Source: Chryseobacterium gleum (lineage in GTDB: Bacteria; Bacteroidota; Bacteroidia; Flavobacteriales_D; Crocinitomicaceae). Taken from it: a stretch of 64,000 nucleotides of DNA. The stretch spans positions 186,001-250,000 of the forward strand of contig CAMDAH010000001.1 in NCBI GenBank assembly GCA_945888625.1. The letters run 5' to 3'. Positions 23,958 through 40,406 of this stretch are shown here, one piece after another (the first letter of the stretch is position 1; each line of letters begins with the position of its first letter). The notes beneath the pieces were generated by a model, which did no database searches, was not told the origin of the DNA, and saw only the letters and a program-made list of their open reading frames with translations. Made by a program: the position numbers and the translations under genes.

Positions 23958-24533
23958 ATGTTTTTAGAACAATTTCCAGGAGAAAGTAAGCAGCAAGGAT
24001 GGATTGAAGTAATTTGTGGGTCTATGTTTTCCGGTAAGACAGAAGAACTTATCAGACGAATTAAACGAACACAATTTGCTAATCAAAGTTTGGTTTTATT
24101 CAAACCTGCGATTGATAATCGATACAGTGAAAATAACGTGGTAAGTCATCAAGGGAATGCCGTTGAAGCGGTGCTTATTAATACATCTGCCGAAATATTA
24201 CGAATTTGGAATAATGAGAAGGTGGTGGCAATTGACGAAGCTCAATTTTTTGACAAGGGAATTATAAATGTTTGCCATGTGCTGGCGTCGAAAGGAGCTA
24301 GGGTCATTATTGCGGGGCTAGATATGGATTATACAGGTAAGCCTTTTGGCCCAATGCCGAATCTTTTAGCCATTGCGGAATATGTTACAAAAGTGCATGC
24401 CATTTGTCTTTCTTGTGGTAATTTAGCGCAGTTTTCTCAACGCACTGCGAGTGAATCTACTCAAGTATTAGTTGGTGCAGTGGAGAAGTATCAACCGCTT
24501 TGTCGATCGTGTTACAATAAACTAAGCACTTGA
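23958..24533 (+). CDS. tdk: thymidine kinase
   Basis: Type II thymidine kinase of the dTMP salvage pathway. The P-loop GSMFSGKTEEL (about 27-37), the Walker B-like DEAQFF and a four-Cys zinc site (CLSCG and CRSCY) are present; 191 residues is the normal size. The TGA stop shares bases with the TTG start of murF-alr. Confidence 0.95.
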   Translation: MFLEQFPGESKQQGWIEVICGSMFSGKTEELIRRIKRTQFANQSLVLFKPAIDNRYSENNVVSHQGNAVEAVLINTSAEILRIWNNEKVVAIDEAQFFDKGIINVCHVLASKGARVIIAGLDMDYTGKPFGPMPNLLAIAEYVTKVHAICLSCGNLAQFSQRTASESTQVLVGAVEKYQPLCRSCYNKLST

Positions 24534-26830
24534 AATTAGAAATTAACTTACCGAAACTAATTCAGCTAGTTGGAGCTCAATTTTATGGGGAAACGCCGCA
24601 AAATGAAATCATCAATGGAGTTGTTATTGATTCCAGGAAGATTGTTTCCGGACATCAGCTTGTTTATTTTGCTTTGCCCGGTGAGTTTAAAGATGGACAT
24701 GATTTTATAAGTGCTGCCTACTCGAAAGGGGTACGGGTTTTTATTGTTACAAAAAAACAATCATTAACTTTTAACCACGCTTGCTTCCTCGTTGTGCAAG
24801 ACACCTTAATTGCATTACAAGCAATTGCAAAATACCATCGTGAGCAATTTCACTTTCCAATTATTGCTGTAACAGGCAGCGTTGGTAAGACAACTACAAA
24901 AGAATGGCTTTATCATTTATTGTCAACTCAATTTCGAATAATTCGAAGTCCTAAAAGTTATAATTCTCAGCTTGGAGTAGCCTTGTCCCTTCTTGAATTA
25001 ACCGAGGATTGTGATATTGCTATTATAGAAGTAGGAATTTCTCATCCAGGTGAAATGGAGGTGCTTGAAAAAATCATATCCCCCGAAATAGTTTTGTTAA
25101 CCAGTATTGGCACGGCTCATTTACATAATTTTACGGATATCAATCACTTGTGCCAAGAAAAAATAAAATTGGCTAGTCGTGCAAAAAAAGTTTTTTTAGG
25201 CCCAACTATAGCCACCGAGAAATTCGCTTTTCTTGACAAAAAAGACTTAGTAAGTAAAGCGGCAGTTGAACTTTCCTTAATTCCTTTCAACGACAGTGCA
25301 AGCAGGGCTTCAGCCGCAATTGCCATTGCCGTGGCAAAGTTTTTTGATGTGGGAGAGGATAGACTGAAGTCTGCCGTCTCCACGCTCCCACGGTTGGCCA
25401 TGCGCTTAGAAACCTATGAGGGAATTAACAACAATACGGTCATTAACGACACCTATAATTTGGATTTAGATGCACTAAGCCATTCGTTAGAATTTCAGAC
25501 CTCGTTGGCAAACGAACGAACTAGGGTTTTAATTATCGGGTTACATGAAAAGAACCCGGTGCTTTTAGAAAAAATTTATGCAATCACCACACCATTTCGA
25601 TTAGATGAAATCCAAGTAGTATACTTAAATGATTATCCCTCGTTTATTTTTGAAAATGCCGTTATTCTGTTAAAAGGAACGCGAAAAGCAAACATGCAAA
25701 AATGGGCTATGCAGCTAAAGCTAAAAAAACATAAAACGCAAATTGAAATAAATTTATCGGCCTTAAGGCACAATTTGTTGCAGTACAAGGAGGCAGTTAA
25801 TAAAAACACAAAGTTGCTGGTAATGGTTAAGGCCCAGGCCTATGGAAGCGGCCTCATTAAAACAGCTCAATTTATTGAGAAAATGGGGATTGATTATCTT
25901 GGAGTTGCTTATGCTGATGAGGGTGTTGAACTGCGAAAAGCGGGTGTGTTATTACCAATTTTGGTTATGAACGCAGAGGAAGAGGCATTCGACGATTGCA
26001 TACAATATAAATTAGAACCTTCAATCTATTCTTTCGAACAACTTGAAGCCTTACTTCATCATCTTATTGCTCAAACGATAGAGGGATTTCCAATACACTT
26101 AAAATTCGATACGGGTATGAATAGACTCGGGTTTTCATCCAAAGAAACTCGAAAATTGATTGACGTAATTCGTTCCCAACCTGAAATTTTGATTAAAAGC
26201 GTTTATTCTCATTTAGCTGAATCGGATAATCGAAAAGATCCTTCATTCACCTTACGTCAAGTTGAAACCTTCACCCAGCTTTGTAACCAGGTCCAAAAAA
26301 TGGTTCCGACACCATTCCTTCGCCACATATTAAATTCGGAGGGAATAATTAATTTTTCTTCAGACCAAACGACTATGGTTCGTATAGGCATCGGAGCATT
26401 CGGAATCAGTTCGAATGAGATTTGGCGGAAAAATTTAAGGCCTGTCATTGCTTGGAAAAGCACAGTTTCACAATTAAAAACAGTAGAGAAAGGCGAAAGT
26501 ATAGGCTACAATCGGTCTTTTTTAGCCCCCAAAAAAATAACGATCGCCATCATTCCACTTGGCTACGGCGACGGGTTTAGAAGAATTTTAAGCAATGGCA
26601 AAGGGGGTGTTTTCATTCAAGGTGCATTTTGCCCAACGGTAGGAAATGTTTGTATGGATATGATTATGGTGGAGGTAAGTCACATTTCCGTAAAAGCAGG
26701 AGATGAGGTTGAAATTATTGGACAAAACCAAAGTATCGAGGCATTATCAACCTCAATGGAAACAATCCCTTATGAGCTCATGACGGGGATTTCACAGCGC
26801 GTTTATAGAAGTTATATTAATGAGGAATAA
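24530..26830 (+). CDS. bifunctional MurF ligase / alanine racemase
   Basis: A natural fusion common in Bacteroidota. The N-terminal half (about 1-395) is a Mur ligase with the ATP loop TGSVGKTTTKEW, which would add D-Ala-D-Ala to the UDP-MurNAc-tripeptide. The C-terminal half (about 400-766) is a PLP-dependent alanine racemase with the Schiff-base Lys at K434 (VKAQAYGSG) and the second catalytic Tyr at Y660 (GYNRSF). It starts with TTG, overlapping the tdk stop (TTGA). One protein would thus make D-Ala and use D-Ala-D-Ala for cell-wall precursors. Confidence 0.94.
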   Translation: MKLEINLPKLIQLVGAQFYGETPQNEIINGVVIDSRKIVSGHQLVYFALPGEFKDGHDFISAAYSKGVRVFIVTKKQSLTFNHACFLVVQDTLIALQAIAKYHREQFHFPIIAVTGSVGKTTTKEWLYHLLSTQFRIIRSPKSYNSQLGVALSLLELTEDCDIAIIEVGISHPGEMEVLEKIISPEIVLLTSIGTAHLHNFTDINHLCQEKIKLASRAKKVFLGPTIATEKFAFLDKKDLVSKAAVELSLIPFNDSASRASAAIAIAVAKFFDVGEDRLKSAVSTLPRLAMRLETYEGINNNTVINDTYNLDLDALSHSLEFQTSLANERTRVLIIGLHEKNPVLLEKIYAITTPFRLDEIQVVYLNDYPSFIFENAVILLKGTRKANMQKWAMQLKLKKHKTQIEINLSALRHNLLQYKEAVNKNTKLLVMVKAQAYGSGLIKTAQFIEKMGIDYLGVAYADEGVELRKAGVLLPILVMNAEEEAFDDCIQYKLEPSIYSFEQLEALLHHLIAQTIEGFPIHLKFDTGMNRLGFSSKETRKLIDVIRSQPEILIKSVYSHLAESDNRKDPSFTLRQVETFTQLCNQVQKMVPTPFLRHILNSEGIINFSSDQTTMVRIGIGAFGISSNEIWRKNLRPVIAWKSTVSQLKTVEKGESIGYNRSFLAPKKITIAIIPLGYGDGFRRILSNGKGGVFIQGAFCPTVGNVCMDMIMVEVSHISVKAGDEVEIIGQNQSIEALSTSMETIPYELMTGISQRVYRSYINEE

Positions 26831-30674: not shown

Positions 30675-31196
30675 ATGAATCCTCGCGTAGAAAAAGCCCT
30701 TAACGATCAAATACAAAAAGAAGCATCTTCTTCACAATATTATCTTGCTATGGCCTCTTGGTCTGAAGCAAACGGCCTTAACGGAACGGCAAAGTTCATG
30801 TACGCCCACTCAGATGAGGAACGATTTCACATGCTTAAATTAATAAAGTTTGTTAATGAACGCGGTGGACGAGCCGAAATAGCAGCAGTGACTATTCCCC
30901 CCAAAGAATTTAATGACTTAAAAAATGTTTTTGAATCGCTGCTTAGTCACGAAATACGTGTTACCGAAAGCATCAACGAACTGGTGGATGTTTGTCTTCA
31001 AGAAAAAGATTATACTACCCATAATTTTGTGCAATGGTACGTTTCAGAACAACTAGAGGAAGAGGCATTGGCGCGTACCATGCTTGATAAATTACGCTTG
31101 ATTGGAAATGATCAAGGTGGAATGTATTTATTCGATAGGGATTTAGAAGGCGCTTCAAAAGAGAAGCCGTCGTCCTCTCAGCCAATGGGAAGCTAA
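30675..31196 (+). CDS. bacterial non-haem ferritin
   Basis: Iron-storage four-helix protein of 173 residues; 24 copies would form a cage that oxidises and stores iron. The ferroxidase-site residues are visible: Glu near 16 (QKEASSSQYYLAM), the DEERFHM motif with Glu and His, and later Glu and Gln residues (EQLEEEALA). The stop codon is directly followed by the start of the cyclase gene with no spacing, so the two are almost certainly co-transcribed. Confidence 0.93.
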   Translation: MNPRVEKALNDQIQKEASSSQYYLAMASWSEANGLNGTAKFMYAHSDEERFHMLKLIKFVNERGGRAEIAAVTIPPKEFNDLKNVFESLLSHEIRVTESINELVDVCLQEKDYTTHNFVQWYVSEQLEEEALARTMLDKLRLIGNDQGGMYLFDRDLEGASKEKPSSSQPMGS

Positions 31197-34100
31197 ATGT
31201 TGAAAAGGGTAAAATTCTCACTCTGTTTTCTGTGTCTTTTATCGTTTAATTTAACAGCTCAGTCTGATTTAAGATTTATCAATTATACCATTAATAATGG
31301 GTTGTCACAAAGTGCCGTGACTACTATCGTGGAGGACAATTACCACGGTATTTGGGTGGGAACCCAAGAAGGATTAAATCATTTCGATGGAAGGGAATTC
31401 CGTGTTTACAGTCGTGAAAATACACCCGGTATCTACAGCGCATACATTACTTCTTCTGCAAAGACCGTTAATGGTGATTTATGGTTTGGTACAACCAATG
31501 GCCTACTGCATTTTGATTCCAGATTAGATAAGTTCTCTACAACTTTTCAAAGCAACAAAAAGTTGCTGGCAGTGGAAAGTTTGGTGTATGATGGTAACAA
31601 CTTCCTGTGGGTGAGAACCCAAAGCAAACAGCTATTATGTTTTAATATCGCGACAAATAAGTTTGTTGAGGTGCCCACTTTTATTCCCGACAAAGAGGTG
31701 TTTTTTTTGGCTAATGCATCTGCTGGAAAACTGCTAATGGCAACCAATAAAGACGTTTTTTTAATCGATGTTGATCAGCGCACAAAAATTAAGCTTAAGA
31801 TTCCTATTCAAAATAACCAACCCTTACTATTGCTATCCTCTTACACGCAGGATAATAAAAATGTGATTTTTTCCTCCTCTCAAGGTTTATTTTCTATTTC
31901 ATTAAAAACAAAAGCCATAACAAAAGTATTTAACGCTCTAAGTTTGCGCGTTTGTAGTGCAATTGTTGGAATTCAAAACGTTAATAATTCCTGGGTTTTT
32001 GCCACAAGTGGTTTCGGATTAGTGCAAGTAAAGCAGGACGGCCAGATAATTCGTTGTAACGACGATGTTTTTAAGAAAAATGCGCTGTTAAATAATAACG
32101 CTTCGTGTTTATTAATTGATAGATCCGGAGTTGGATGGGTGGGCACAGAAAGAGGCCTATCTAGTTTTAATCCAAACGACCGAGGTTTTTTTGCCATAAG
32201 TCCTGGCGCCAACTTAAATACGGGGCTGCCAAGTCAAAATGTTTGGAGTATCGGGGAAAGTAAGAATGGGGACCGTATTTACTTAGGTACAGACTCCGGA
32301 ATTTCAATATACAATCCTAAGAACGGATTGGTAGAACACGTTTACAAACAGGGTCAAGTTGTGAATGACGGAAGTGCGTCTGTTCTCTGTATAGCTACGT
32401 TACCCGATGAGACGTTATTACTTGGTTGCTATGATGGCTTTTACCGTTTAAACCCAAAGGTCAAAGGGGCGAAATTTCAGAAAATTAACCTTAAAGTAAA
32501 CCCACAAGATAATTTACATCAACGAGTATACTCCATCTTATCTTATGGCAAAAACGATTATTTTTTAGCTACCAATTCAGGCGTTGTTTTGTGGAATGAA
32601 AATACCGGAAAAACACGCCGTTTCATACATGATTTCGAAAATCCTTTCGCAACAATAAAAGAGGGTATATGTCGAACCATTTTTAGGAATCAACAAGGAG
32701 TCATCTATTTTGCGACTAGTAGCGGAGGGCTCAGTGTTTTTGACCCGAATTTAATGGTAATCAAACCCTATCCTTTAAACTATAAAATTGCTGAATTTTC
32801 AAGAGACATTATTACAAGTATTTGCCAAACAGGACCAGAGGAGTATTTTATGGGAACCTTAGGATCTGGCGTATTGAAATTTAATACCTCGACCTTAAAA
32901 GGCGAATTAATCGATAAACGAAAAGGATTGCCAAATAATGTGGTCTATGGTATCATTAAGGATAATCGTTCTAATTTATGGATGAGTACTAATCGTGGCA
33001 TTGCTAAGTACAATCGCTTGTCTGGTAAAATTAAAAGGTACGACGAGTTAAATGGGTTGATTTGTAACGAATTTAATTCAAATGCGCATTTTATGTCCCT
33101 TAGGGGCATAATTTTTTTTGGTGGAATTAACGGATGCAACTATTTTATTCCTGAGAATATAATTAGTTCTAAACAACTTTCTAATGTAATTATTACCGGA
33201 CTTTCAATTGATTCGAATAAGCAAAATCCCAAAGCAAGAAAAATTAATGCCTATTACTTAGCTAAGCTAAAAGAAGGGATTGTTTCGTTGGATTACAGAC
33301 AGCGAAGTCTAACGGTATTTTTCCAACCTTCCAATTTGTATGCCCCAGAATTAATCATCTATAAATACATTTTGGATGGCGAACAAACTGACACAAAAAC
33401 GTTTTCACTTTCCAACTCGATAAATTTTAATTCCCTATCGTTTGGTAAATATACCCTGCGTATTTATGCAAAAATAGGTGACGGATCCTGGAGTAAGGTA
33501 CCTGCAAAACTTGTATTTGTAATCGAACCTCCTTATTGGGCCACATTTATATTTTGGTTCTTAATGTGTTTTCTTGTATTTGTGTCGGTTTCGTTGATTA
33601 TTCGAAACAGAATAAACCAAACTCGACGCGATCAGGTAAAGTTAGAAATGAAAATTGCGGAAAGAACAAGGGAAATTCGCAATCAAAAGTCCCAAATAGA
33701 AGAACAGAATTCGCGAATAAAGGAGGAAAAAGATAAAGTTATAGAACAACAACAGTTAATTTTTAAAGAAAAAGAGATTGCCGAGAAATGGTTAAAAAAT
33801 GCCTTGCCCGCTCAAGTCATTAAAGAACTCAACATGAACGGAAAAGTACAGGCAAAAGCGTATGAGTTTGTTTCTGTTATGTTCACCGACGTGGTGGGTT
33901 TTACGAAAATCTCAGAGTCGATGTCGCCAAGCCGACTAGTCGCCAAGCTCGATGTGATCTTTCGGAAATTTGATGACATTGCTGCAGCCAATAATCTCGA
34001 AAAAATAAAAACAATTGGCGATGCCTACATGGTGGCAGGGGGCATTCCGGATAAAAACTCTACCCATCCCCTCGACACGTGCATTGCTGCGCTTCAAATG

Positions 34101-35087
34101 CAAGATTATATGAATCGGTTAAAATTTGAGGCAATTGCAAATGGAAAGGATTATTGGCAAATAAGAATCGGAATTAATTCTGGACCGGTAACCACGGGTG
34201 TTATTGGCAAATTGAAAATTGCCTATGATGTATGGGGACCAACTGTTAATCAGGCGCAGCGAATGGAAATGTTAAGCGCACCAGAAAAGGTAACCGTCTC
34301 AGCATCGACATTTAATTTTATCGAGCCTTATTTTGAGTGCGAATACATGGGCAAGGCCCTGACTAAAACGAAGACAATGGTCAATATGTATGCTGTATTG
34401 GCTATTAAGGCAGAATTGTCCTTGGAAGGTAAAGGTCTTGAGCCAAACGATCGCTTCTACCAAATTGTACAACTCCATTTATTCAGTCACATTAAATATT
34501 ACAAGGTAGAACATGAACTAATAAAAAAATTAACGCAAGGCCTGAATCCTGATTTGCTTTACCATTCCGTAGAACACACAAAAGATGTGGTAAAATCGGT
34601 TGAACGGATTGCTTTTCAAGAAGGAATCACAGATGAGAATTTATTTTTGCTAAAAACAGCGGCGTTGTTTCACGACGCTGGTTTTTTGAAGCAATATGAA
34701 AAGAACGAGGAAATTGGTGCTAAAATGGCCGCAGAGATGCTACCAAAATATGGATACAGTCCACAACACATCAAAAGTATAGTGGAATTAATACATGTTA
34801 CTGAAATCCCACACAAGCCCTTGAATCATATTCAGGAAATTATTTGTGATGCAGATTTAGATTACTTAGGAAGGGCCGATTTTGATAGGATTTCTGATAA
34901 TTTAAAGGCCGAACTAAAAACGATGAAAAAAATCAATAGTGACCGAATCTGGGATGAAATGCAAGTTATATTCTTTAATAAACATAGGTATTTCACAAAG
35001 TCCGCCATCGATAATCGAGAGAAAAAGAAACAAGCAAATCTGGCTACTATTTTAACTAGATTGGAAGAAAATAATTACGACAATTGA
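31197..35087 (+). CDS. transmembrane sensor: beta-propeller, Y_Y_Y domain, class III adenylyl cyclase and HD domain
   Basis: A 1296-residue protein. A signal peptide (1-21, then Gln) leads to two-component-regulator-type propeller repeats (about 40-690) and a Y_Y_Y-like Ig domain (about 700-775), all predicted periplasmic. One transmembrane helix (about 782-804) and a coiled coil (about 805-870) follow. The class III cyclase (about 885-1050) has both metal Asp (D898, D942), the adenine-specifying K938 and D1011, and the transition-state N1018/R1022. The C-terminus (about 1085-1290) has an HD pattern: H1123/H1127, H1159-D1160, H1200, D1218. It could therefore make cAMP and also hydrolyse a phosphoester, possibly cAMP itself. 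Starts immediately after ferritin. Confidence 0.9.
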   Translation: MLKRVKFSLCFLCLLSFNLTAQSDLRFINYTINNGLSQSAVTTIVEDNYHGIWVGTQEGLNHFDGREFRVYSRENTPGIYSAYITSSAKTVNGDLWFGTTNGLLHFDSRLDKFSTTFQSNKKLLAVESLVYDGNNFLWVRTQSKQLLCFNIATNKFVEVPTFIPDKEVFFLANASAGKLLMATNKDVFLIDVDQRTKIKLKIPIQNNQPLLLLSSYTQDNKNVIFSSSQGLFSISLKTKAITKVFNALSLRVCSAIVGIQNVNNSWVFATSGFGLVQVKQDGQIIRCNDDVFKKNALLNNNASCLLIDRSGVGWVGTERGLSSFNPNDRGFFAISPGANLNTGLPSQNVWSIGESKNGDRIYLGTDSGISIYNPKNGLVEHVYKQGQVVNDGSASVLCIATLPDETLLLGCYDGFYRLNPKVKGAKFQKINLKVNPQDNLHQRVYSILSYGKNDYFLATNSGVVLWNENTGKTRRFIHDFENPFATIKEGICRTIFRNQQGVIYFATSSGGLSVFDPNLMVIKPYPLNYKIAEFSRDIITSICQTGPEEYFMGTLGSGVLKFNTSTLKGELIDKRKGLPNNVVYGIIKDNRSNLWMSTNRGIAKYNRLSGKIKRYDELNGLICNEFNSNAHFMSLRGIIFFGGINGCNYFIPENIISSKQLSNVIITGLSIDSNKQNPKARKINAYYLAKLKEGIVSLDYRQRSLTVFFQPSNLYAPELIIYKYILDGEQTDTKTFSLSNSINFNSLSFGKYTLRIYAKIGDGSWSKVPAKLVFVIEPPYWATFIFWFLMCFLVFVSVSLIIRNRINQTRRDQVKLEMKIAERTREIRNQKSQIEEQNSRIKEEKDKVIEQQQLIFKEKEIAEKWLKNALPAQVIKELNMNGKVQAKAYEFVSVMFTDVVGFTKISESMSPSRLVAKLDVIFRKFDDIAAANNLEKIKTIGDAYMVAGGIPDKNSTHPLDTCIAALQMQDYMNRLKFEAIANGKDYWQIRIGINSGPVTTGVIGKLKIAYDVWGPTVNQAQRMEMLSAPEKVTVSASTFNFIEPYFECEYMGKALTKTKTMVNMYAVLAIKAELSLEGKGLEPNDRFYQIVQLHLFSHIKYYKVEHELIKKLTQGLNPDLLYHSVEHTKDVVKSVERIAFQEGITDENLFLLKTAALFHDAGFLKQYEKNEEIGAKMAAEMLPKYGYSPQHIKSIVELIHVTEIPHKPLNHIQEIICDADLDYLGRADFDRISDNLKAELKTMKKINSDRIWDEMQVIFFNKHRYFTKSAIDNREKKKQANLATILTRLEENNYDN

Positions 35088-36319: not shown

Positions 36320-39300
36320 ATGATTAAAGTTTCCTTTACCATTTTGTTTTTATTTGCGTTAAATTTCATTTACAGCCAAGTAAAGATAAATGAGTATTCT
36401 TGTTCTAATTTGGCTGGGCCAACGGACGCTTATGGCGAAAGTGAAGATTGGATAGAGTTGTTAAATACAACCGCGGGGCCTATTAATTTAACGGGTTGGT
36501 ATTTGTCCGATAAGGCAATGAACCTTACCAAATGGCTTATTCCAAGTGGTTCTATTTCTGCAAATGGCTTTAAAATGGTATTTTGTTCCAAAAGAAACTT
36601 AGTAAATGGAAATGAGTATCATCCCAACTTTAACCTTTCTCAGACGGAAGGAGATTGGATTATTTTAACTAATCCCTCCTTGGTGGTGGTGGACTCATTC
36701 AAAATTGTTCACATGACAAAATCCAATCATTCTGTCGGTCGAACGACCAATGGCGCGGCAACATTTAGTTTGTTTACGACTCCTACGCCCAACGCGAATA
36801 ATAGCGGTGCAGTTAATTTCTACACGCCAACACCTGTTTTTAATTTGCAAGCAGGGTTTTATCCCGCGGCACAGTCTATTACGATTACCTGTCCTGACCC
36901 TAGCGCGACCATTCGGTATACCCTAGATGGCTCTGACCCTGTCGTTACTTCTCCAATTTATTCAGCGCCGATACCAATAGCAACCACAAAAGTGATAAGA
37001 GCCGCGGCATTTAGTAGCAATTTACCTTCTTTCACCGCGACAAACACTTATTTTATAAATGTGAACCATTCCATACCAGTTGTTTCTGTTTCTGGTCAAG
37101 GCGTATATACCTTGCTCCAAGGATCGCAAATTACCCCTGTTGGCTCCTTCGAATTGTTTGAGGAAAACGGCGTTTTTATTGATGAGGGACAAGGAGATTT
37201 TAATGAGCATGGGAATGATTCTTGGGGTTATCCTCAAAGAGGATTTGACTTTATTTTGAGAGATGAATTTGGTTATAATGGAGATTTAGAACATGTTATT
37301 TTTCCGGAAAAAGCAAGAGATAATTTCCAACGTTTAATCTTAAAGCCTGCCGCAAGTGATAATTATCCATTTGAAAATGGGGCGCATATTCGTGATGCTT
37401 TTATTCATGAACTATCTATTAAAGCTGACATGAAATTAGATGAGCGAACGTGGAGACCCTGTGTGATCTATCTGAATGGACAGTATTGGGGCGTTTATGA
37501 ATTAAGGGAAAAAGTAGACGATGCTGATTATACTGACTTTTACTATAATCAAGATAAATTCAACTTATACTATTTAAAAACTTGGGGAGGCACATGGGAA
37601 GACTATGGTGCGCCTAATGCCCTGCCGGATTGGAACAACCTAAAAAATTATATTGCTACTAACAGCATGGCTAACCCAAGCAATTTTAATTATGTCGATA
37701 GTTTACTGAATTGGGAATCGCTTTGTGATTATTTTATGATAAACTCCTATGTTGTTAATCAAGATTGGCTGAATTGGAATACCTCTTGGTGGAGAGGACT
37801 CGATACAACTGGCGATAAGAAAAAGTGGCGTTATTCGCTTTGGGATATGGATGCTACTTTTGGTCACTATATCAATTATACGGGAATTCCAGATCCAAGC
37901 GCCAATGCAGACCCATGTAATGCCGAAAACTTGCCGAATCCCGGAGGCCAAGGACACACCGACATACTTCAAAAGCTTATTCTCGAAAATCCAGCAGTAG
38001 AACAATATTATATTACACGTTACATTGATTTGATAAACACCAATTTTTCTTGCGATACCATGATTATGCTTCTCGATAGTATGGTCAATGAAATCGCCCC
38101 TGAAATGACGGCACATTGTGCCAAATGGGGTGGGACATACGCCGGATGGCAGGCAAATGTACAAACATTGCGAGATTTTATCAATGCACGATGTCTTGCA
38201 TTGGCGCAAGGATTAATTGATTGTTATCAATTAAGTGGACCTTTTCCAGCCACTTTTAACGTTACGCCTGTAAACGCAGGAAAAATTAAAGTTAACTCGA
38301 TTTGGCCACAGGCTTATCCGTGGTCTACTACGTATTTTGGAGGAATAAACACCAATATTATTGCTCAGGCTAATCCGGGGTATATATTTAGTAATTGGAC
38401 TTATGTTACAGGGCCTCTTCTTTTTCCAATCGCACAAGACACAAATGGCGTGAACATTACTGGCCCCGAAACTATCGTGGCTGTATTTGTAGCGGATAAT
38501 CCTGATTTGGATGGCGATGGTTGTTTGAATGTGGATGAAATTGCAGCAGGTACAAATCCTAATAATCCCGACACTGACGGCGATGGTGAAAACGATTGTG
38601 CAGAAATAGGGGCTAATCCTTTGACGCCTTTGGATACGGATGGCGATGGAATTATTGATGCCTTAGATTCTTCTGTTGCCGATACAGATGGCGACGGGGT
38701 CAACGATGAAACTGACCCAGCGAATAATGACCCCTGTATTCCAAATCTTACATCACCAAACTGTGATTCTGATGGTGATGGATTAACCTATAGCCAAGAG
38801 ACAGCAGAAGGAACAAATCCGTCTAACCCTGATACTGATGGAGACGGTATATCGGATGGCGCTGAAGTAGCAAATGGGTCAAACCCTTTAGACCCTTGCG
38901 ATCCAGACGATTCCTTACCGCTTTGCCAAATAGATACAGACGCTGATGGTTTAACCGATGCTTATGAAGGCGTTTTAGGAACCGATCCTACCAATCCAGA
39001 TTCAGATGGCGATGGGTATAGTGATGGACAAGAAGTTACCAATGGTTCTGACCCATTAGATCCCTGCGATCCAGACGACACCTCCCCTAAGTGTGCAACA
39101 GGTATTCATATTCCTACAGCATTCTCCCCCAATGGCATTGGAAATGAGGCAAATAATGGCTATTCTATCATTGTTGGGTATGACATTGCGTCATTTACAT
39201 TCAATGTGTATGATCGATGGGGTAATTCGATGTATCAATCCAGTGCTAGAAATTTCGTTTGGGACGGAACTTATAAAGGATCAAATTGCAATGCGGGCGT

Positions 39301-39379
39301 TTATGCGTATATAATTGATGTTATTTATATGGATGGTAAGAAAGAAACCCTTTCTGGAAATATCACGCTAATTCGTTAA
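36320..39379 (+). CDS. T9SS type B surface protein with lamin-tail, chitobiase-like, CotH kinase and TSP3 repeats
   Basis: A 1019-residue secreted protein. Signal peptide 1-19 (then Gln); a lamin-tail domain (about 22-155); a chitobiase/FN3-like module (about 165-245, YTLDGSDP); a CotH-kinase domain (about 255-620) with the family motif W508-D-M-D511-A-T-F; Ca2+-binding thrombospondin type 3 repeats (about 730-905, many DxDxDG loops); and a gliding-motility type C-terminal sorting domain (about 925-1019, TAFSPNG...VYDRWGN). CotH kinases phosphorylate Ser in spore-coat proteins; here the substrate is unknown. The porP/sprF-type gene follows after one base, the usual partner of type B cargo. 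Confidence 0.92.
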
Positions 39380-39380
39380 G

Positions 39381-40406
39381 ATGCCCAAGTTCTTTTTAGG
39401 ATTTTTATTTACAATAATAAGCAGTCATCTTGTTGCTCAAGATTACCATTTTTCCCAATTTGACAAAGTTTTGATGGTACTAAATCCCGCTACTGTCGGA
39501 AATTTTGAAGGCTTCGAACGGCTTAGTATTCAAAATAGAAACCAATGGATCGGTGCCGGCACACAATTTACTACCACCATGGCTTCTGCCGAACTTACCT
39601 TTGGTAAAACAGCAAGAAAAAACGATCCGTTTGTTGGGTTAGGGATCTTATTCCTAAACGATGTGGGCGGCGACTCCAAATTCGGAATGACTGCAGGTGG
39701 TATCTCATTAAGTGGTAATCTACCCCTTTCAAAATCACACCGTTTATCCGCAGGAATTCAAACATCCTTTAACAATCGATCGGCTGATTTTTCTAATTTA
39801 TCCTTTTATTCTCAATGGAATGGAAGCGGATTTGATCCCAGTATTCCTATTGATGAACCGAACCAGTTGGCATCATTTAGTTATGTTGATGCAGGTTTAG
39901 GAATTCATTATATTTTTGATAAAAAGAGTAATTCCAGCAGTGGGGGGAAAGAATTGGTGTTTTCCAGCGGCTTCTTTATTCAACACATTAATCAACCCAA
40001 ATTGCGTTACAATGCTTTAACGCTAGATAGACTCAATGCAAAATATGGTTTATATGTATCGTCTAAATTAGGAATTAATACGGTTGCGGGTATTGAGCTG
40101 AAAGTAGCGCAATTTTTTCAGGGGCCTCATTACGAAGGACTCTATGGTTCTTTTTACCAGGTTAAACTCAAACGTGAATCAAAATCTACTGCTTTAAGAA
40201 ATGAGAAAAAACTAGGCGTCGGGTTTTATGTTAGGTCTTCCGGTGCACTCATACCTGCTTGCTTTTTAGACTTGGGTTACTTCCAAATGGGTGTTTCTTA
40301 CGACCAAGAATTAAGCAAACTTTCAAGGGCATATCGAAGTTCTTTAGAGTTTACATTTAGTTTTACAGCAACCAAAAAATCGTTTTTTTCAGGGAGAAAA
40401 CTATAA
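39381..40406 (+). CDS. PorP/SprF-family outer-membrane protein
   Basis: A 341-residue outer-membrane beta-barrel with signal peptide (1-19, VAQ) and the family N-terminus DYHFSQF...LNPATVGNF. PorP/SprF-like proteins secrete or anchor T9SS cargo that carries type B sorting domains. It starts one base after such a cargo gene, so it is probably its dedicated partner. The 3' end overlaps the convergent GH3-family gene by six bases. Confidence 0.92.
   Translation: MPKFFLGFLFTIISSHLVAQDYHFSQFDKVLMVLNPATVGNFEGFERLSIQNRNQWIGAGTQFTTTMASAELTFGKTARKNDPFVGLGILFLNDVGGDSKFGMTAGGISLSGNLPLSKSHRLSAGIQTSFNNRSADFSNLSFYSQWNGSGFDPSIPIDEPNQLASFSYVDAGLGIHYIFDKKSNSSSGGKELVFSSGFFIQHINQPKLRYNALTLDRLNAKYGLYVSSKLGINTVAGIELKVAQFFQGPHYEGLYGSFYQVKLKRESKSTALRNEKKLGVGFYVRSSGALIPACFLDLGYFQMGVSYDQELSKLSRAYRSSLEFTFSFTATKKSFFSGRKL

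Follow-up and report, generated by a model that had tools for sequence, protein, structure and literature searches.

A sensor-adenylyl cyclase-HD protein of Bacteroidota as a candidate self-limiting cAMP module

The 64,000-nucleotide stretch analyzed here (the window; positions 186,001 to 250,000 of contig CAMDAH010000001.1, Chryseobacterium gleum assembly GCA_945888625.1, placed in the Crocinitomicaceae) encodes a protein that joins a presumed periplasmic propeller sensor, a class III adenylyl cyclase (AC) and a C-terminal HD domain on one polypeptide. We propose, with a probability of roughly 0.58, that it would act as a membrane-anchored, self-limiting cyclic AMP (cAMP) module in which the cyclase is combined with an HD domain that hydrolyzes its product. 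The propeller-AC-HD arrangement itself is a widespread Bacteroidota architecture, representing a conserved family and no one-off.

In the proposed mechanism, the propeller and Y_Y_Y part, whose fold is assigned by homology and which is presumably periplasmic, would sense a ligand, and the transmembrane helix and coiled coil would relay this signal by setting the geometry of a putative cyclase dimer. The class III cyclase, which has the expected residues, is predicted to convert ATP to cAMP, and the C-terminal HD domain would hydrolyze 3',5'-cAMP in an active site whose register is like that of class I phosphodiesterases (PDEs). In this site H1127, H1159, D1160 and D1220 would bind metal, H1123 would protonate the leaving oxygen, and Q1256 and F1259 would hold the base. 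Synthesis and breakdown on one polypeptide may confine the signal to short, local pulses.

A recurrent propeller-AC-HD architecture

A sequence-only reading of this DNA had described the open reading frame (ORF), its active-site residues and a propeller plus Y_Y_Y sensor lacking a histidine kinase; the coordinates are right, each residue stands at its given position, and the sensor was recovered by Reg_prop (E 2.1e-21) and Y_Y_Y (E 4.4e-10) matches. The N-terminal half also matches the Protein Data Bank (PDB) sensor structures 4a2l and 3v9f, so the protein resembles hybrid two-component sensors in its propeller and Y_Y_Y-type sensor but differs from them in that neither a histidine kinase nor a receiver is among the 14 Pfam families found in it. 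A kinase-type hybrid two-component identity was ruled out by the lack of a kinase domain in Pfam. Further along the chain, Guanylate_cyc matches residues 884-1067 (E 7.5e-46; 156.5 bits versus a cut-off of 21.9) and HD (PF01966) residues 1126-1220 (24.2 bits versus a cut-off of 22, with the H..HD..D pattern present), and an AlphaFold2 (AF2) model of residues 831-1296, the AC-HD part, has a pLDDT of 88 and a pTM of 0.81.

When the same domain order was sought across Bacteroidota, it proved recurrent. Of 1602 candidate proteins examined in a search with the HD part, 1082 matched at E<=0.001, and the best 120 of these 1082 all carry the cyclase domain PF00211 and are mostly ~1300 amino acids (aa) long; source labels on some matches name a ligand-binding sensor domain, a class 3 adenylate cyclase or an HD phosphohydrolase. 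The HD family is present at E<=0.001 in 93 of 120 genomes of the order and in 40 of 41 of the window's own family (the exception being G074), and at E<=1e-20 in 101 of 296 genomes of the phylum. ORFs that contain the HD family range from ~190 to 1866 aa, and cyclase fusion is not universal among them. In named genomes, Brumimicrobium salinarum, B. aurantiacum and Fluviicola among them, 533 stretches were confirmed; the 80 best, a sample that favours close relatives and in which some ORFs are cut at contig ends, hold 56 propeller-AC-HD, 21 AC-HD and 5 HD-only ORFs. Same-genus relatives of ~523-544 aa are without the propeller and keep the transmembrane helix, coil, AC and HD, and therefore AC-HD behaves as a unit. 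At another locus (L104), the C-terminal 692 aa of an 1866-aa ORF read GAF-AC-HD.

Residues of the cyclase and HD sites

Conservation was assessed in 121 aligned fusions, comprising the window protein and the 120 best matches of the HD-part search; because these are its closest relatives, invariance among them is partly shared ancestry. The complete set of AC residues claimed by the sequence-only reading is in place. We take D898 and D942 to serve the metals, K938 and D1011 the adenine, and N1018 and R1022 the transition state; the first five, including the ATP-type Lys/Asp pair, are each invariant (121/121), while position 1022 is R in 74, Q in 45 and H in 2, the window protein having R. The window cyclase carries ATP-type residues, from which conversion of ATP to cAMP is predicted. 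Its matches to the PADLOC PycC models are weak (31.6 and 15.2 bits), and a Pycsar cyclase identity was dropped for that reason.

Replacement of the transition-state Arg in 47 of the 121 fusions, with the HD residues conserved in all 121, raises the alternative that many members are chiefly PDEs in which a degraded cyclase serves as a regulatory nucleotide sensor, a situation paralleled by GGDEF-EAL proteins whose GGDEF part is degenerate. We consider this highly improbable, since the window protein has R1022 and the metal Asp residues and the Lys/Asp pair are invariant.

In the HD domain, H1123, H1127, H1159, D1160, D1218, D1220, D1222, H1206, W1252, Q1256 and F1259 are each found in 121/121 fusions, H1206 being frequently another residue in other HD contexts. 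Across 140 HDs from five contexts, no variation is seen at the metal ligands or the candidate acid His either. An intact HD site is supported; of its residues named from the sequence, H1123, H1127, H1159 and D1160 stand, and two others needed revision. H1200 was ruled out as a metal ligand of the fusion family, since the position is H in 75 of the 121 fusions and otherwise F (22), Y (15), N (7), E (1) or K (1). The metal Asp of PDE4D aligns with D1220, not with the equally invariant D1218, and D1220 replaces it in the proposed site.

Probable cyclic-nucleotide hydrolysis by the HD domain and its alternatives

The fold, the active-site register and the linkage of stand-alone HD genes to cyclases point to cyclic-nucleotide hydrolysis as the probable function of the HD domain, and the earlier suggestion that the protein both makes and removes its signal gains indirect backing from the same three sources. 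By VIA-align, class I PDE domains and YpgQ tie at the top rank for the HD domain, and the structural match to class I PDEs spans 196 of 206 residues. A profile alignment to PDE4D places the acid His, the metal ligands, Q1256 (the base-binding Gln) and F1259 (the clamp Phe) on their counterparts; this alignment is forced, and of 300 shuffles one brought the Gln and Phe into register together. The outcome was unchanged when the PDE side was enlarged by 120 vertebrate PDE4 proteins, with the template read as one sequence (Template_Neff 1), and hhalign in global mode gave an uninformative 28-column alignment. The best relative scores 22.1 bits against PF00233 (PDEase_I), under its cut-off of 24.8, and among PDB sequences PDE9A and trypanosomal PDEB1 match the A1 profile below threshold (E 0.15-0.21). 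A PDB sequence search for the PDE register with one HD-PycTM protein was set aside, as it returned the HD entries 2qgs (E 0.05) and 2pq7 (E 0.74) along with apparent chance matches, and no PDE.

Linkage was examined at 40 stand-alone HD loci, hand-picked from the order-level genome list, across ~5 kb on either side. A separate class III cyclase lies nearby in eight, and a ninth (L052) has a cyclase cut by the contig end. Six HD/cyclase pairs are tail-to-tail, five with receiver-cyclases (L048, L049, L051, L074, L075) and one with a TPR-cyclase (L086); at L050 and L090 a propeller-cyclase without an HD domain lies on the same strand, with opposite-strand genes in between. Six of ten genomes examined, eight of which were picked for showing HD-cyclase linkage, have a single cyclase, which adjoins the HD gene in five and is 7 kb off in G024. 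Two Chryseobacterium records have tandem cyclases upstream of the HD gene, and a YitT gene lies downstream in the one examined. In a tree of 103 HDs, for which 18 of the 56 propeller rows were kept alongside the window protein, cyclase-adjacent HDs fall in three separate parts; all cyclase-linked rows are within one starred 86-row set (100/96) that also holds 22 stand-alone HDs, and four PycTM-fused rows are outside it. Gln occupies position 1256 in 56/56 propeller-AC-HD fusions, 33/35 AC-HD fusions, 10/10 cyclase-adjacent HDs, 22/35 other stand-alone HDs and 0/4 PycTM-fused HDs.

Several observations weigh against the self-limiting cAMP module; foremost among them are the closer sequence kinship of the HD domain with YpgQ-type HDs and its lack of PF00233 membership. 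Foldseek ranks YpgQ-like HDs (2pq7/YpgQ) above PDEs, and the first two thirds of the domain are closest by sequence to YpgQ-type HDs (hhalign E 1.2e-13). Per-column confidence in the PDE4D alignment is low, the D1220 register held in just 32 of 40 half-size profiles, and the local E was 0.03 when the narrower A1 profile was used. The window protein has no PF00233 match at E<=1, and residues 1159-1168 read HDAGFLKQYE and do not fit the class I PDE signature HDxxHxGxxN. No cyclase lies within ~5 kb at 31 or 32 of the 40 stand-alone loci, two AC-HD fusions (L193 and L195) have Asn at position 1256, and the Gln pattern at this position is confounded with phylogeny. The loss of the transition-state Arg from fusions that retain their HD residues belongs here as well.

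The HD domain could instead be a nucleotide pyrophosphohydrolase of the YpgQ type, or another nucleotide hydrolase, that acts next to the cyclase on ATP, deoxynucleoside triphosphates or an alarmone and not on cAMP. We regard this as unlikely. The window HD shares with YpgQ/2pq7-type phosphohydrolases an HD core with H-x3-H, HD and DAD motifs, but the hhalign match covers residues 18-135 of 206 and not the whole domain, and it ends before the C-terminal third that holds the invariant W1252, Q1256 and F1259 (W-x3-Q-x2-F). In addition, the same genome encodes a separate YpgQ-type protein, and the HD domain is repeatedly linked to cyclases. PRK10119 has no match to the window HD at E<=0.01 (a stand-alone relative, L203, matches it at 0.0021, far under the cut-off), and no NCBIfam family above its cut-off spans the domain.

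It is also conceivable, albeit quite unlikely in our estimate, that the HD domain is mainly a receptor for cAMP (or AMP), turning over little of it and regulating the cyclase by feedback. The 98% complete genome (G000), which has two class III cyclases, has no match to cNMP_binding (PF00027) and none above cut-off to HTH_Crp_2, and therefore another cAMP receptor would be needed; fusion of HD relatives to PycTM and YitT membrane parts also fits such a role. However, all 14 other same-genus genomes have a PF00027 match, so the absence in G000 may be an assembly gap, and the metal ligands and candidate acid His are conserved across the five HD contexts as in an enzyme. The second cyclase of this genome (L001 1450-3372, 9 kb past the window; 640 aa) has no HD domain, and its N-terminus appears TPR-like by eye.

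At L065-L068 and L123 an HD of this family is joined to PycTM (PF18967), and in L065-L068 the Gln position holds N, S or E; in one genome a single polypeptide unites an HD and a YitT membrane protein (L102 1501-2961), and in Chryseobacterium balustinum a YitT gene starts 7 nt after the HD gene (L203 4513-5983). ORFs of 390-430 aa, common among the phylum matches, may likewise encode HD-PycTM proteins. A more tentative proposal, which we think possible but doubtful, is that the HD family constitutes an unrecognized bacterial class of phosphodiesterases acting on 3',5'-cyclic mononucleotides, and that this class is a prokaryotic cousin to the class I PDEs. Bacteroidota would join these HDs to cyclases as self-limiting modules behind many sensors (here ferritin-coupled), akin to the plant CAPE proteins discussed below, and would attach to Pycsar-type membrane effectors a variant whose base-binding position is changed (Gln to Asn, Ser or Glu), giving these effectors a built-in off switch for another cyclic nucleotide.

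Gene neighbourhood, known systems and significance

In the window, the stop codon of a ferritin gene directly precedes the ATG of the fusion gene (spacing 0 nt). Upstream sequence of 700 nt or more was present for 49 propeller-AC-HD ORFs (loci among L131-L200); 28 of these have a same-strand ferritin ORF upstream, 25 of them overlapping or at most 115 nt away, and ferritin is upstream of 0/20 propeller-less ORFs. With this conserved neighbour, iron or oxidative state may belong to the protein's context. Promoter-like and terminator-like sites showed no enrichment over shuffles, and a search of literature listings revealed no report of the ferritin-fusion gene pair.

Table 1. Coordinates of the sensor-cyclase-HD gene, its encoded parts and the adjoining ferritin gene in the window
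Feature	Position	Strand	Basis
Whole gene, sensor-cyclase-HD protein, 1296 aa	31197..35087	+	ORF call, ATG start
Signal-peptide-like N-terminal stretch, residues 1-21	31197..31259	+	Sequence judged by eye
Presumed periplasmic two-component-regulator propeller, ~residues 24-680	31266..33236	+	Reg_prop, PorZ_N_b_propeller, PDB 4a2l/3v9f matches
Y_Y_Y domain, 716-776	33342..33524	+	Pfam
Single transmembrane helix, 778-806	33528..33614	+	Hydropathy
Coiled coil/transducer ahead of cyclase, 807-883	33615..33845	+	Sequence; AF2 helices from residue 832
Class III adenylyl cyclase domain, 884-1067	33846..34397	+	Pfam, residues, alignment
HD domain and C-terminal helices, ~1111-1296 (H1123, H1127, H1159, D1160, D1220)	34527..35084	+	
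Q1256-x2-F1259, register of the invariant Gln and Phe of class I PDEs	34962..34973	+	
Ferritin gene, often conserved upstream neighbour	30675..31196	+	

Elsewhere in the window, one ORF has Mur ligase and alanine racemase domains (24530-26830), and a CotH/TSP3/CHU_C protein is followed by PorP/SprF (36320-40406), which suggests type IX secretion.

One of the closest known parallels is found in plants. CAPE (COMBINED AC with PDE) of Marchantia and other streptophytes carries a class III AC and a cAMP PDE on one polypeptide, both activities having been seen in vitro with separate recombinant domains (PMC5159850), and its PDE is N-terminal and described as class I (PMC8115329). The window protein would share the make-and-break logic of an AC and a hydrolase on one polypeptide, but it belongs to a different family and has the reverse domain order, with a C-terminal HD domain as hydrolase and a propeller sensor in front; of the AC and class I PDE that define CAPE, it has the AC and fails PF00233. 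Its HD domain resembles class I PDEs in fold, and its acid His, metal ligands, Gln and Phe share their register, but it is shorter (~200 versus ~320 residues), in addition to falling under the Pfam cut-off and lacking the signature. Pycsar systems, which pair a PycC cyclase with a PycTM effector, overlap with this family through the PycTM-fused HD relatives of Bacteroidota; the window protein itself lacks PycTM, and its cyclase residues are of the ATP type. A comparable bacterial cyclase-PDE fusion was not found in the open-licence literature, with subscription journals mostly outside this scope. The view that cAMP signalling is little explored in this phylum fits the thin literature and a 2005 census, which records no ACs in four sequenced Bacteroidetes (PMC1183210).

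If the proposed function is correct, this protein would be a bacterial one-polypeptide switch that makes and breaks cAMP, in parallel to plant CAPE and to the GGDEF-EAL proteins of c-di-GMP signalling. The HD family would then explain cAMP removal in many Bacteroidota, class I PDEs would gain a bacterial relative, and there would be a handle on the HD-PycTM proteins. A link between iron storage and cAMP in Crocinitomicaceae and their kin would also become testable.
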